Assembly (NCBI GenBank): GCA_027482195.1
Contig: JAIXWE010000092.1
Span: forward strand, 1-45,062
Reading direction: 5' to 3'
Source of the DNA: Alphaproteobacteria bacterium
GTDB lineage: Bacteria > Pseudomonadota > Alphaproteobacteria > Micavibrionales > Micavibrionaceae
Length of the DNA: 45,062 bases
Position 1 is the stretch's first letter, and each line of letters opens with the position of its first letter. Below the pieces are notes generated by a model. That model ran no database searches. It was not told the DNA's origin and saw only the letters and a program-made list of their open reading frames with translations. The translations under genes were made by a program, and so were the position numbers. Below are positions 32,637-37,136 of the stretch, piece after piece.

Positions 32637-32708
32637 GGTGTGAGATTAGAGTGATTCAAAAATGATCACAATTGAAATGAATCGGGGATAAAATCAGGCA
32701 GATAAGGT

Positions 32709-32800
32709 GGAAGGTTGACAACGACCCGATGAAATTCGTTACGGCTGCTGTCTTTCGACCCTGACCGGATTGGCGACACAATCGCCCGCCGCAACCTTCC
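32709..32800 (-). ncRNA. ffs: Small bacterial SRP RNA (4.5S)
   Basis: A 92-base hairpin RNA that binds Ffh. The first nine bases (GGAAGGTTG, 32800-32792) and the last nine (CAACCTTCC, 32717-32709) are exactly complementary and close the molecule. The M-domain-binding loop (32766-32743) has the canonical arrangement GGU-CAGG / GUC-GAAA-GAC / AGCA-GCC, with a GAAA tetraloop in place of the usual GGAA. It sits 72 bases upstream of dnaX on the same strand, near which this gene is often found. Promoter at 32807-32836. The family is clear from the loop; exact 5' and 3' ends are estimated from pairing. Confidence 0.9.
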
Positions 32801-32806
32801 GCAGAT

Positions 32807-32836
32807 GATATAGAAGTGTTTATCCCCCTTTGGCAA
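32807..32836 (-). promoter_or_regulatory. Promoter of the SRP RNA gene
   Basis: On the minus strand TTGCCA (32836-32831), 18-base spacer, TATATC (32812-32807). Six bases later is 32800, the first base of the RNA helix, so the predicted start coincides with the end of the closing stem. Confidence 0.65.
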
Positions 32837-32937
32837 GATGAATTGCCGCATCATTTTGCCTGCTATGATCGCAAATTATACGTAGTCAGGTCATATCGTG
32901 CCAATTTATTACAAATTAATTTTTTCCGACTGTTTGA

Positions 32938-33063
32938 TGGAATTTTTATAAATATCTGATTGACCAGCAGGGTCAGTTCGTTGCAAGTTTCGGATCGCAA
33001 ACCAGCCCGGATGATCCGAAAATTACCCGCGCCATTGAGAGCTTGCTCACAAAAAAGCTATAA
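32938..33063 (+). pseudogene. Relic of a glutathione peroxidase gene (C-terminal 41 codons)
   Basis: An open frame without start codon reads W-N-F-Y-K-Y-L-I, then D-Q-Q-G-Q-F-V, a Phe-Gly, T-S-P-D-D-P, and I-x-x-L-L to a TAA at 33061. This is the standard end of the GPx/BtuE family (WNF-x-K-F-L ... G ... F ... P-x-D). An in-frame TGA (32935-32937) directly precedes it, and the bases further upstream are not GPx-like. It is therefore a truncated remnant. Inside it lies an inverted repeat TTTCGGATC (32988-32996) / GATCCGAAA (33013-33021). Confidence 0.7.
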
Positions 33064-33115
33064 AAATACCAAATAATTGACATATTAAAAATAACTTTTG
33101 CCAAAAAATGACTTC

Positions 33116-33136
33116 TTTGGTACTGATTTGGTACTG
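33116..33136 (+). promoter_or_regulatory. Tandem TTTGGTACTG operator
   Basis: TTTGGTACTG occurs at 33116-33125 and 33127-33136, i.e. with an 11-base period, about one helical turn. It ends five bases before the -35 box at 33142. Two sites on the same face of the helix next to the -35 box fit an activator (or repressor) dimer or two bound monomers. Confidence 0.6.
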
Positions 33137-33141
33137 GTTTC

Positions 33142-33172
33142 TTGCGTCCGGATAAGTGTTACACTATAACAC
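33142..33172 (+). promoter_or_regulatory. Promoter of the unknown cassette, with a dyad over the -10
   Basis: TTGCGT (33142-33147), 17-base spacer, TATAAC (33165-33170). The inverted repeat GTGTTA (33156-33161) / TAACAC (33167-33172) straddles the -10, so a bound protein would block it. Together with the tandem sites upstream this suggests two-sided control. Confidence 0.65.
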
Positions 33173-33202
33173 AACTATCATCCCAATGAACAAGAGTGAG
33201 CA

Positions 33203-33544
33203 ATGACACAAGCGGCCGTAAAATCTGCGCAGGGTTTCGAGGTGAAAGACCATCTTGGTTCTCATGATTTTATCTGGGACAAGCCTTTGGAGCTGCAAAC
33301 CCAACAATCAATTGATCGTGTATTGGAATTTTTCCTGCGCAATGGGCGCATGCTCAATATCCAAGCAAAGGGAGATGTCGTCACCGTCGCCAAAAAAATT
33401 GTGAGCGACATGCGCCATCATATTCCCGACACGCTTCAAAATGATATGAATGAGATGATGAATTATCTTTTGAATTGGTTGTGTGATTATTGCGAAGCAA
33501 CTAATACAAAATTTCTTGATGTTGAATTTTCACTGAAAAAATAA
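33203..33544 (+). CDS. Unknown protein, 113 residues
   Basis: First gene of a three-gene cassette. I do not recognise a family. Soluble, helical, mixed charge, with no signal peptide; a cysteine pair (LCDYC) near residue 94. A GAGTGAG ribosome site precedes the ATG. Five bases separate its stop from the next ATG. The elaborate promoter upstream suggests it is regulated and expressed as part of an operon. Its small size, with the very long gene that follows, could make it a partner or chaperone, but that is guesswork. Confidence 0.65.
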   Translation: MTQAAVKSAQGFEVKDHLGSHDFIWDKPLELQTQQSIDRVLEFFLRNGRMLNIQAKGDVVTVAKKIVSDMRHHIPDTLQNDMNEMMNYLLNWLCDYCEATNTKFLDVEFSLKK

Positions 33545-33549
33545 AAGCC

Positions 33550-36453
33550 ATGAACATTCCCGCACGGATTAATCCTGACCATATTGAAATTGCCTTCCCG
33601 CACAGCCGTCACGCACATGACAAGGCGGCGACCATTGTGGATTTAATGGGCGGCCACAAAGCGCGCCGTTTTGAAATGAACGGCAACGGGTCTTCCGCAA
33701 AAAAAGATTTGGGGCTTTTGAGCGTGATCGCGGGTCAACAATGTTTCTTGCTGACGGGAAGCCGTTTTGACCAACAAGATATTCGCGATTTCGACAACAA
33801 CATAAATGGCGGCCCCGGTCTTGCGATGGCCGGCAATGACCAAGGTGCATCACCTCAAGGCGGCGCGCACCAACCCCGCCCCGATCTTGCGCTTATCCGC
33901 CTGATGGGGAGCGCACTTGATACCACGCCGCCCGCCTTGATCAATGAAATTAGTGCACTTGTTCACACCGCTGTAAGCGAGCAGGAGCAAGAAAAGCAAA
34001 TCGCAATCAACGATGTCTTGACCCAACTTGTTGATTTAAAAAATCTCAGCGAAATTGACGCCCTTCCCGCCGGCCAAGAACGCATGACGGTTTTGCTTCA
34101 AGAACTGACACAAAATATTCTCAGCACCAGCATTGAGAATTTTGACAATCAAACTTTTTCACATGCAATTCTTGATCTTGTCCAAGATCAAATTGTAACC
34201 ATCACGAAAAATACTTCTGTTGATTTAAATATTTTGCAACAAGACATGCAAAGCATTGCGGTCAGGCTTGATCCAACCACGCAATATGCGCAGATCACTC
34301 AAGAAAGTGCAGCTGTTTTAAAAACCTTGTTGGAATCCGGCACCATCACACAGGAACAGCGCGCCGAGATTGAAAATCTTGTCGCCCTTCTTGAAAGTGA
34401 TCCAGAAACAACACCCGCCCTTACACTTTCGCGCAGCCTTGCGACACTTTCCCCGGCAGTGATGGAGATGATTGCCGCACAGAATCTTTCAAATGGCACA
34501 GACATAATTGCGAGCGTGAAAGACGTCCTTCACGTGCGCTTGTCCCAAGAGATGGGGGTGAGTGTTGAAACCGCACGCGCCGTTGATGTTGCGTTTGTTG
34601 CACTTCTTGATAACCACGCGCAGATGATGGCACAACCGGAAAATCTCTCCCCCGCACAACAAGAAATTTTAAGCCAGTTGAATGTAAGCCTTGCGGCCTT
34701 TGAACAAGCCCCCGCATCCCTTGCAAATCTTGCACAAATTTTGACGCTTCAAAATAATATTGCGGAACAATTTACTACCCAAGAGACGAACGTAAACCCT
34801 GGCGCGGCGGCGGAACTTGTGGCGGCGACCACGGCGCTCTCAGAAGCGACAGTGGCTTTAGTCGCGCAAAATTATGATCTTAACCCCGCGCAAATAACTC
34901 TTTTGACTCAAGCCCTCACCGCGCCCGCATCACCTTCATCGCCGAGCCTTGAAAGCTTTGTGGCAACATTAAGCGAGCCGCAAAAATTGGATCTTCAAGC
35001 AGAGATTGCAAAAATTGAAATCTTGTCGGCAAGTGGCATCACAGTGCCGATTTCTGAAACGAATGCGCCTTTGCAAAATGTGCAAAATATTCAGGATGTC
35101 ACGGTAATAACGCCCGAAACTCCGTCTCTTGTTTCCACCTTTGCGCAAATTGCAACTGCGTCAGATAATTTTGATGCACCTGAAAATATATCAACCGTGC
35201 CTTCGGTCACAGAAATTTCGGCCGCATCTGTTGACACAGAACAAACACCCATCACAGTGGCGAACCAAGATTTACAAGAACCTGACCAGCAAATAAATAA
35301 TATCACGGCTGATGAACAAACCAGACCAGACGGCGCAGAGATTGCGGTTGCATCCGTTGCAACTATTGCGGCGACTGAATCAGAAATAAAAACCGAAACA
35401 CCCAGTACACCCGATACACCCAAAACATCGCAAACACAGGTAGAAGCGCGCCCCGCGATAAGCCCAATCACACCGCCCCCACCCGCGAATGAAAATAAAT
35501 CGCCTGTGCAAGTTACAAATCAACCCGCGCCCACGCCAGCATCGCCGCCTCCACCGCAATCTGGGGCGCCGTCACAACCGCCCGCGCCGGCAACCCCGCC
35601 GCCACCCGCACAGCCCGAAAAAAAGGTGGAAGAATTTTTCCAAAAACCAAAAGCGGGCGGAGAAGACACGCAAAAACCAGAAGTCATTTTACCAAAGGCG
35701 GATGTGCCCCCACCTGTCGTCGCGCCCGTGGCTCCGCCTTCATCGCCAATTTTACAACAACCATCCGCGCCACCACCCCCACCCACAAGATTGGACACTT
35801 TTGAAAGCCCGGTTGCGCGCCCCGCTGTCCCAGAAACACCCGAGCCGCCACCTAGACGCAGATTCGAAGGTGAACCAAAAACCTTGGCGGATTTTATGCC
35901 ACCAGCTCCCGTAAATGACGAACCAGGTGACCCATCACCTTGTAAACGATGCCCTTTAGGTGGTGGTAGTTGTGATGGCTTGTGCAAGACAGAATTCAAT
36001 AAAGCTCGTGGAAAAGTTGATGGAGAAAGTCCTGATAATGATCCCAAGAATGATCCAAATAAAGATCCCGATCGTGATCCTGAGCCAAAAATTCCTGAAG
36101 AAGAACTTGAAAAGATTATCAAGGAAACTGGCTTGCCAGAGGATGAAATTGTTAGACTGATAAAGAAAGGGCAAAAGGCTTTGGGTGACGATTTAGAAAA
36201 ACGCGTGCAGGAAAAAGGTCTTGCACAAACACTTTTGGATATCAAACAAGCAAAAGAATTAGAAAGCGAAGCAATCAAAGAAGGAAAAGAAATTGATACG
36301 TCTTTAAAACATCTAAAAAATGATGGGGCAAAGCCCAGCACCATTGTTGTGAGCCCAAATCTTGGTGAGAAAATTGCCGCGCCAACATCTCAAAACACAC
36401 CAAAGACATTTCAAGGAAATGGGATGCGCCAACGCACACCTCGTATGAATTAA
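33550..36453 (+). CDS. Very long unknown protein with proline-rich middle
   Basis: A 967-residue protein without signal peptide or membrane segments. Residues 1-about 100 look like a compact N-terminal part; about 100-500 are long, glutamine- and leucine-rich and probably helical; about 500-780 are disordered and rich in T, P, A and then P (PPPPANENK, PSPPPPQSG-type stretches); near residue 800 a cysteine cluster C-K-R-C...SCDGLC lies between charged segments; the last 140 residues are K/E/D-rich helices. The coding sequence changes character near 35940: the part with the cysteine cluster and charged tail (to about 36330) is poorer in G+C. No ribosome site is evident; translation is probably coupled to the previous gene. 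No family recognised. Confidence 0.7.
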   Translation: MNIPARINPDHIEIAFPHSRHAHDKAATIVDLMGGHKARRFEMNGNGSSAKKDLGLLSVIAGQQCFLLTGSRFDQQDIRDFDNNINGGPGLAMAGNDQGASPQGGAHQPRPDLALIRLMGSALDTTPPALINEISALVHTAVSEQEQEKQIAINDVLTQLVDLKNLSEIDALPAGQERMTVLLQELTQNILSTSIENFDNQTFSHAILDLVQDQIVTITKNTSVDLNILQQDMQSIAVRLDPTTQYAQITQESAAVLKTLLESGTITQEQRAEIENLVALLESDPETTPALTLSRSLATLSPAVMEMIAAQNLSNGTDIIASVKDVLHVRLSQEMGVSVETARAVDVAFVALLDNHAQMMAQPENLSPAQQEILSQLNVSLAAFEQAPASLANLAQILTLQNNIAEQFTTQETNVNPGAAAELVAATTALSEATVALVAQNYDLNPAQITLLTQALTAPASPSSPSLESFVATLSEPQKLDLQAEIAKIEILSASGITVPISETNAPLQNVQNIQDVTVITPETPSLVSTFAQIATASDNFDAPENISTVPSVTEISAASVDTEQTPITVANQDLQEPDQQINNITADEQTRPDGAEIAVASVATIAATESEIKTETPSTPDTPKTSQTQVEARPAISPITPPPPANENKSPVQVTNQPAPTPASPPPPQSGAPSQPPAPATPPPPAQPEKKVEEFFQKPKAGGEDTQKPEVILPKADVPPPVVAPVAPPSSPILQQPSAPPPPPTRLDTFESPVARPAVPETPEPPPRRRFEGEPKTLADFMPPAPVNDEPGDPSPCKRCPLGGGSCDGLCKTEFNKARGKVDGESPDNDPKNDPNKDPDRDPEPKIPEEELEKIIKETGLPEDEIVRLIKKGQKALGDDLEKRVQEKGLAQTLLDIKQAKELESEAIKEGKEIDTSLKHLKNDGAKPSTIVVSPNLGEKIAAPTSQNTPKTFQGNGMRQRTPRMN

Positions 36454-36467
36454 AAAGGAGAGTATCA

Positions 36468-37136
36468 ATGAGTAACCATACCCACACACGTTTTTCCATC
36501 AAAGATCCCGTTTATGTGGGCGATGAACAAAGTTTTGACGAAGCCCGCGCGTTTTTGGATGCGGATATTTTAGACCGCGGCTTGGCGTTGAAAAACTTCA
36601 ACGATTCCAACCGTCAATTTTTTGAATTGACCCCCATTCATTCCGATGAGTATCCAATTTCGTTTTTAAATGAGAAGAATGAATTACAAACCGTGTTGTT
36701 GTGGGTGGATGCAGATCGAAACAATTGGGCCTCAAACTCACAAGGTGTGCTTATTCCACCTTTTGAAACCGCCCTTGCGGTGATCATGGATGTTATCCGT
36801 GACGAGGATGGAAAGCCTGTGGCACAACGCCCCGTCATGGTGGTTGCGGGGGAAGATTTTCAAGGTGTTTTGGAATATCGCGCATCGTGCTGTGGGTCAC
36901 CCGCAGATGGTTTCAGCGCAATCGTTTTCTTGAAAAACGAAGCCGGCCAAACAACAATTGAAATTGCCGATGCCTTCACAACCAAAGAAGATATGAAGCA
37001 ATATTTCCTCAACATGGATGAAAAAGGTGGTGCGTGGTGCAACACCGCATTCTTGAAAGATCTTTATATGAACGATGCGCAATTGAGCGCACACGTATCA
37101 CCCGGGGCGGCCGCACCTTCTGCGCCAGCGCCGTAA
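36468..37136 (+). CDS. Unknown protein, 222 residues
   Basis: Third gene of the cassette, 14 bases behind the long gene, with a good GGAG ribosome site. Unrecognised, soluble, no signal peptide; ends in an Ala/Pro-rich tail (PGAAAPSAPAP). Contains a Cys-Cys pair (ASCCGSPADGF near residue 145). The order small / very long / medium with tight spacing marks one operon, but I can assign no function. Confidence 0.65.
   Translation: MSNHTHTRFSIKDPVYVGDEQSFDEARAFLDADILDRGLALKNFNDSNRQFFELTPIHSDEYPISFLNEKNELQTVLLWVDADRNNWASNSQGVLIPPFETALAVIMDVIRDEDGKPVAQRPVMVVAGEDFQGVLEYRASCCGSPADGFSAIVFLKNEAGQTTIEIADAFTTKEDMKQYFLNMDEKGGAWCNTAFLKDLYMNDAQLSAHVSPGAAAPSAPAP

Follow-up and report, generated by a model that had tools for sequence, protein, structure and literature searches.

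Among the described systems closest to the cassette reported here, the zrg operons that contain DUF3299 are zinc uptake loci under the control of Zur (Vibrio ZrgABCDE; PMC9817125), and relatives of DUF2946 sense copper in Bordetella and Rhodobacter, the published genes downstream of CruR/CutF (DUF2946) encoding transporters, oxidases or chaperones (PMC9426467, PMC9973294). The NifU/Nfu group (PF01106, PF08712) is the third point of comparison. The cassette lies in a 45,062-nucleotide stretch of alphaproteobacterial DNA (hereafter the window) and consists of three open reading frames on the + strand: gene A (33203–33544, 113 residues, no recognised family), gene B (33550–36453, 967 residues) and gene C (36468–37136, 222 residues). 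The gaps are of 5 bases between A and B and 14 bases between B and C, exactly the tight operon that a sequence-only reading of this DNA had described. That reading had recognised none of the three proteins, and the databases agreed: nothing reached the curated cut-offs of Pfam or NCBIfam, comparison with PHROGs gave nothing at E < 0.01, and searches of solved-structure sequences returned chance-level matches only. We found no description of the cassette in the earlier literature.

The zrg operons contain nothing that corresponds to A, B or C. None of these three matches DUF2796 (ZrgA), no homologue of DUF2796 or DUF2607 (ZrgD) was seen, and the window cassette has no adjoining transporter, that is, no ABC ATPase and permease beside it. 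The published CruR/CutF operons are not organised as A-B-C, and the window copy lacks a DUF2946 leader (no such open reading frame is present in 32637–33202). Finally, A, B and C themselves match neither PF01106 nor Nfu_N, and no NifU-type gene was seen adjoining the window cassette.

B is composed of a conserved domain of some 75 residues at the N-terminus (BN, 33550–33819, + strand; profile A4), an Ala/Leu/Gln-rich middle, a Pro-rich linker (32% Pro over residues 640–800), a four-Cys cluster (CKRCPLGGGSCDGLC, residues 798–812, encoded at 35941–35985 on the + strand) and a charged tail, the final 150 residues being high in Lys, Glu and Asp; the proline-rich region, the cysteine cluster and the charged tail had all been correctly picked out by the sequence-only reading. 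Four of the five cysteines of B fall within these 15 residues, an arrangement with a random-placement probability of 6e-5, and the cluster is a candidate metal or Fe-S site. The same reading had likened the whole to a scaffold or effector system. The anatomy agrees with a scaffold that has a small partner, and this half of the proposal is partly supported. The effector half found no support, since none of the three proteins contains a hydrophobic segment resembling a signal or membrane anchor, and since the promoters and neighbours described below indicate metal handling.

The three-gene order recurs in other genomes. The first search with C led to a relative in G042 (PALX01000005.1, Micavibrio sp. 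isolate SAT33), where A (121 residues) and B (707 residues) lie upstream and the order is conserved. The profiles of A and of BN, run on 142 genomes of the order, matched an identical set (10/142). The C profile matched 13 places in 12 genomes, with B adjoining or a few genes off in every case (13/13). A and B form a single reading frame in G013, G124, G018, G055, G058, G096 and at the second G043 locus; a similar fused frame (E 7e-4) is found in G187, which belongs to a different order. The presence of A and BN in the same genomes, the A–B fusions and the constant association of C with B show that we are dealing with a cassette conserved in a group of Micavibrio-like bacteria. Its unit consists of C together with A-B or the fused AB. 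No homologue was met on its own among unrelated neighbours, nor did any match a known family. G096 was picked up only at E 0.0089, which indicates that the present profiles overlook true members. A weak first match to C in G006 is absent from the list given by the improved C profile; it corresponds to three tandem genes of about 230–240 residues (L005:3680-6303) that are probably unrelated.

The window cassette is preceded by a Zur-like palindrome, GTGTTACACTATAACAC (33156–33172, + strand; core TGTTACACTATAACA at 33157–33171, 46 bases upstream of A). This box has one mismatch to TGTTATANTATAACA, a level equalled in 0/1000 simulated upstream regions, and it differs at 2/17 bases from the Vibrio zrg Zur site GTGTTATATTATAACAC (PMC9817125). 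The 1.80-Mb window genome contains two Zur-like sites with at most one mismatch versus 0.37 expected by chance, and a looser search found fewer sites than in the reversed control; the case for Zur therefore rests on the position of the box and on the gene behind the other site. That site, a perfect one (C96:1207), precedes the gene of a 143-residue membrane-type protein (G000:C96:769-1200, L086, − strand), which has no Pfam match and resembles (E 5.5e-13) the product of the gene directly upstream of DUF2946 in the G124 cassette. As judged from sequence comparison, the sole Fur-family regulator of the window genome is Zur-like (E 9e-19 with PDB 4mtd, the E. coli Zur, versus E 5e-5 with Fur).

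Other copies are associated with other boxes. Cassette Fur boxes are present in G013, G047 and G058, genomes that contain 6, 4 and 6 Fur boxes, respectively (reversed control, 0), including in all three cases one beside the FTR1 iron permease gene. In G013, a Fur box lies at −63 of AB and another at −34 of the NifU-domain gene; in G047, the site of the NifU-domain gene is Fur-like and that of C is Zur-like, with two mismatches in either case. In G049, the dyad AGGACAAANTTTGTCCT (at most two mismatches) occurs twice genome-wide, before A and before the NifU-domain gene. This dyad is found upstream of A or of the NifU-domain gene in L025, L026 and L028 and is nearly cassette-restricted; the regulator that reads it perhaps belongs to the Rrf2 family.

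We then consider the tails of B and the genes that accompany them. The length of B ranges from 550 to 2362 residues across loci and nearly all of its cysteines fall in the final third, in tails of three recurrent types: four-Cys (window, G013, G047, G049, G127, G058 and G187), three-Cys (e.g. CGADCKC and CNGGPDCPHC) and H.CGxxCxH (e.g. HVCGPGCDH). A NifU-domain gene adjoins the cassette in G013, G047, G049 and G127, and it is in this neighbour, alongside the four-Cys tail of B, that the likeness to NifU/Nfu systems lies. Among the loci inside the order, the four-Cys tail is found in 4/4 of those with a Pfam-confirmed NifU neighbour versus 2/12 of the others (Fisher p 0.008), and the Cys/His tails accompany C. 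The window is an exception to this rule, as it combines a four-Cys tail with C and has no NifU neighbour. Three loci (G013, G049 and G127) are devoid of C, and there the NifU-domain gene adjoins B, while the G047 locus contains both C and the NifU-domain gene. Within the C family, a CC pair is invariant (residues 141–142 of the window protein) and a third cysteine is near-invariant; besides the pair, the window protein has a further C-terminal Cys. The B protein of G047 (L023:3414-10502, 2362 residues) has three different Cys tail clusters. One neighbour of the G058 copy resembled Nfu to the eye, but neither Pfam nor profile comparison bore this out, and it was not counted as NifU.

The explanation that we favor, and consider reasonably likely on the strength of gene content and promoter sites, is that the cassette encodes a metal-starvation-induced, tethered metal-binding scaffold that would hand metal to C or to NifU-type partners; the three genes would probably amount to a hitherto undescribed device to capture scarce metals and pass them on. 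A would make up one head unit together with BN, the two genes being fused in several relatives. The long flexible linker of B would present at least one C-terminal Cys or Cys/His cluster binding metal or a cluster, and the metal would be received by a partner, namely C, with its invariant CC pair, in the window, and the NifU-domain protein in the iron-controlled relatives. When zinc is plentiful, Zur would repress the window operon. The parts that we infer are metal binding, the contacts between the proteins, the direction in which metal passes and the identity of the metal in the window copy. Besides the chance level of Zur-like sites and the exception of the window to the tail-partner rule, both given above, three further points count against this explanation: a Zur-like box is present at a G043 cassette, yet only a Fur-type regulator was found in that genome; the G049-type loci use the dyad AGGACAAANTTTGTCCT described above; and the different genomes imply different metals.

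A broader proposal, which we regard as possible but doubtful, is that the cassette is a new metal-allocation machine, with a conserved head, a long disordered tether, swappable tags and, for each copy, a matched partner and metal regulator. The transfer partner, C or the NifU-domain protein, would depend on the tag, control of each copy would lie with the regulator of the metal concerned (Zur, Fur or a DUF2946 leader), and the 2362-residue protein of G047 would bear both kinds of tag, with both partners at hand. If true, three unannotated protein families would acquire a testable role, metal trafficking would be enriched by a design that offers exchangeable binding tags on a disordered tether rather than on a compact chaperone, and the exchange of Zur, Fur and DUF2946 control over one cassette within one order would constitute a natural experiment on metal-specificity change.

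Seven related cassettes begin with a DUF2946-type gene (G042, G037, G128, G124, G018, G055 and G043 locus 2), whose RAPP-like C-terminus recalls CruR/CutF; four of these genes are above the Pfam cut-off, that of G042 is just below it, that of G018 is weak, and that of G055 is supported by the RAPP motif only. Unlike CruR/CutF, these leaders usually have their CXXC motif down to one Cys. As characterised relatives of the genes heading these seven copies respond to copper, and as the tails of B are thiol-rich, the cassette might be a metal buffer or sink, shielding other proteins by binding metal (especially copper) that is in surplus or toxic. This is unlikely, since a Fur or Zur site is usually a sign of repression at plentiful metal, which fits starvation and not excess, and since four to ten cysteines per B would give a sink of small capacity. 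The resemblance to zrg operons is found in G018, in which the cassette is part of a run comprising the DUF2946-type gene, a gene referred to as b, AB, C, an ABC ATPase gene, an FtsX-type permease gene, DUF3299 and a FUR-family gene. Gene b, which lies between the DUF2946-type gene and A (L004:4219-4629, with counterparts in L022, L024, L059-L062 and L130), is small and has no useful Pfam match; its G042 copy has hydrophobic segments.

The NifU-domain neighbours of four genomes could also be taken to mean that the Cys clusters hold Fe-S centres or disulfides and that B and its partner sense iron or redox state. The G058 copy has SufB, Rrf2 and Fur genes nearby, G187 has a peroxiredoxin gene, and a dyad is common to the promoters of A and of the NifU-domain gene, all of which is consistent with such an Fe-S or redox regulator. 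No DNA-binding or enzyme domain was found in A, B or C, however, and neighbours of this kind are absent from the window copy, so that we judge this role rather improbable. In G187, the AB fusion is followed by a 446-residue unrecognised protein (L057:4263-5603) and then by the peroxiredoxin gene.

It is very unlikely that the cassette encodes a structural or envelope scaffold without a metal role, with metal-related neighbours there by coincidence. B is indeed repetitive, of low complexity and very variable in length, and the order includes bacterial predators; however, the Fur, Zur and DUF2946 associations arose separately across genomes and at specific positions.

As to the fold of the head, gene A is a homologue of the N-terminal domain of the fused A-B proteins, and in a model of the G013 A-BN head the A part adopts a helix-strand-helix-helix-strand arrangement (pLDDT about 90), while the BN part is of low confidence. 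Foldseek gave no significant match with this head. To the eye, an HS motif and the order of strand and helix suggested that BN has an HPr-like fold. This was rejected: the hhalign probability was 2%, and the HPr active-site His is not conserved, relatives having Arg, Ser or Ala in its place. It is extremely improbable that the head resembles 2-oxoglutarate/Fe(II) oxygenases in function as well and works on the Pro-rich linker: prolyl hydroxylases and related 2OG oxygenases dominate its structural list (Z 5-6.6, below the meaningful level; best match, Z 6.6 with 4.7 A across 138 residues), but a Z below 8 may reflect merely a common arrangement, the BN model is of low confidence, other folds rank first in Foldseek, none of them significantly, and no conserved HxD...H pattern is visible. 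The AlphaFold model of C (pLDDT 79, pTM 0.77) is mixed alpha/beta, with no significant Foldseek match in the PDB or among viral models and no convincing match by VIA (best Z 4.8). Such absent fold matches, for C as for the A-BN head, are no proof of new folds.

Lastly, a mobile-element origin was considered and rejected, since plasmid and phage records contained no match to C and the genes that follow C recur in G047. In both the window and G047, C is followed on its 3' side by CysQ-type, SapC and HTH genes (39, 59 and 49% identity, respectively), and owing to this recurrence the window copy looks vertically inherited.
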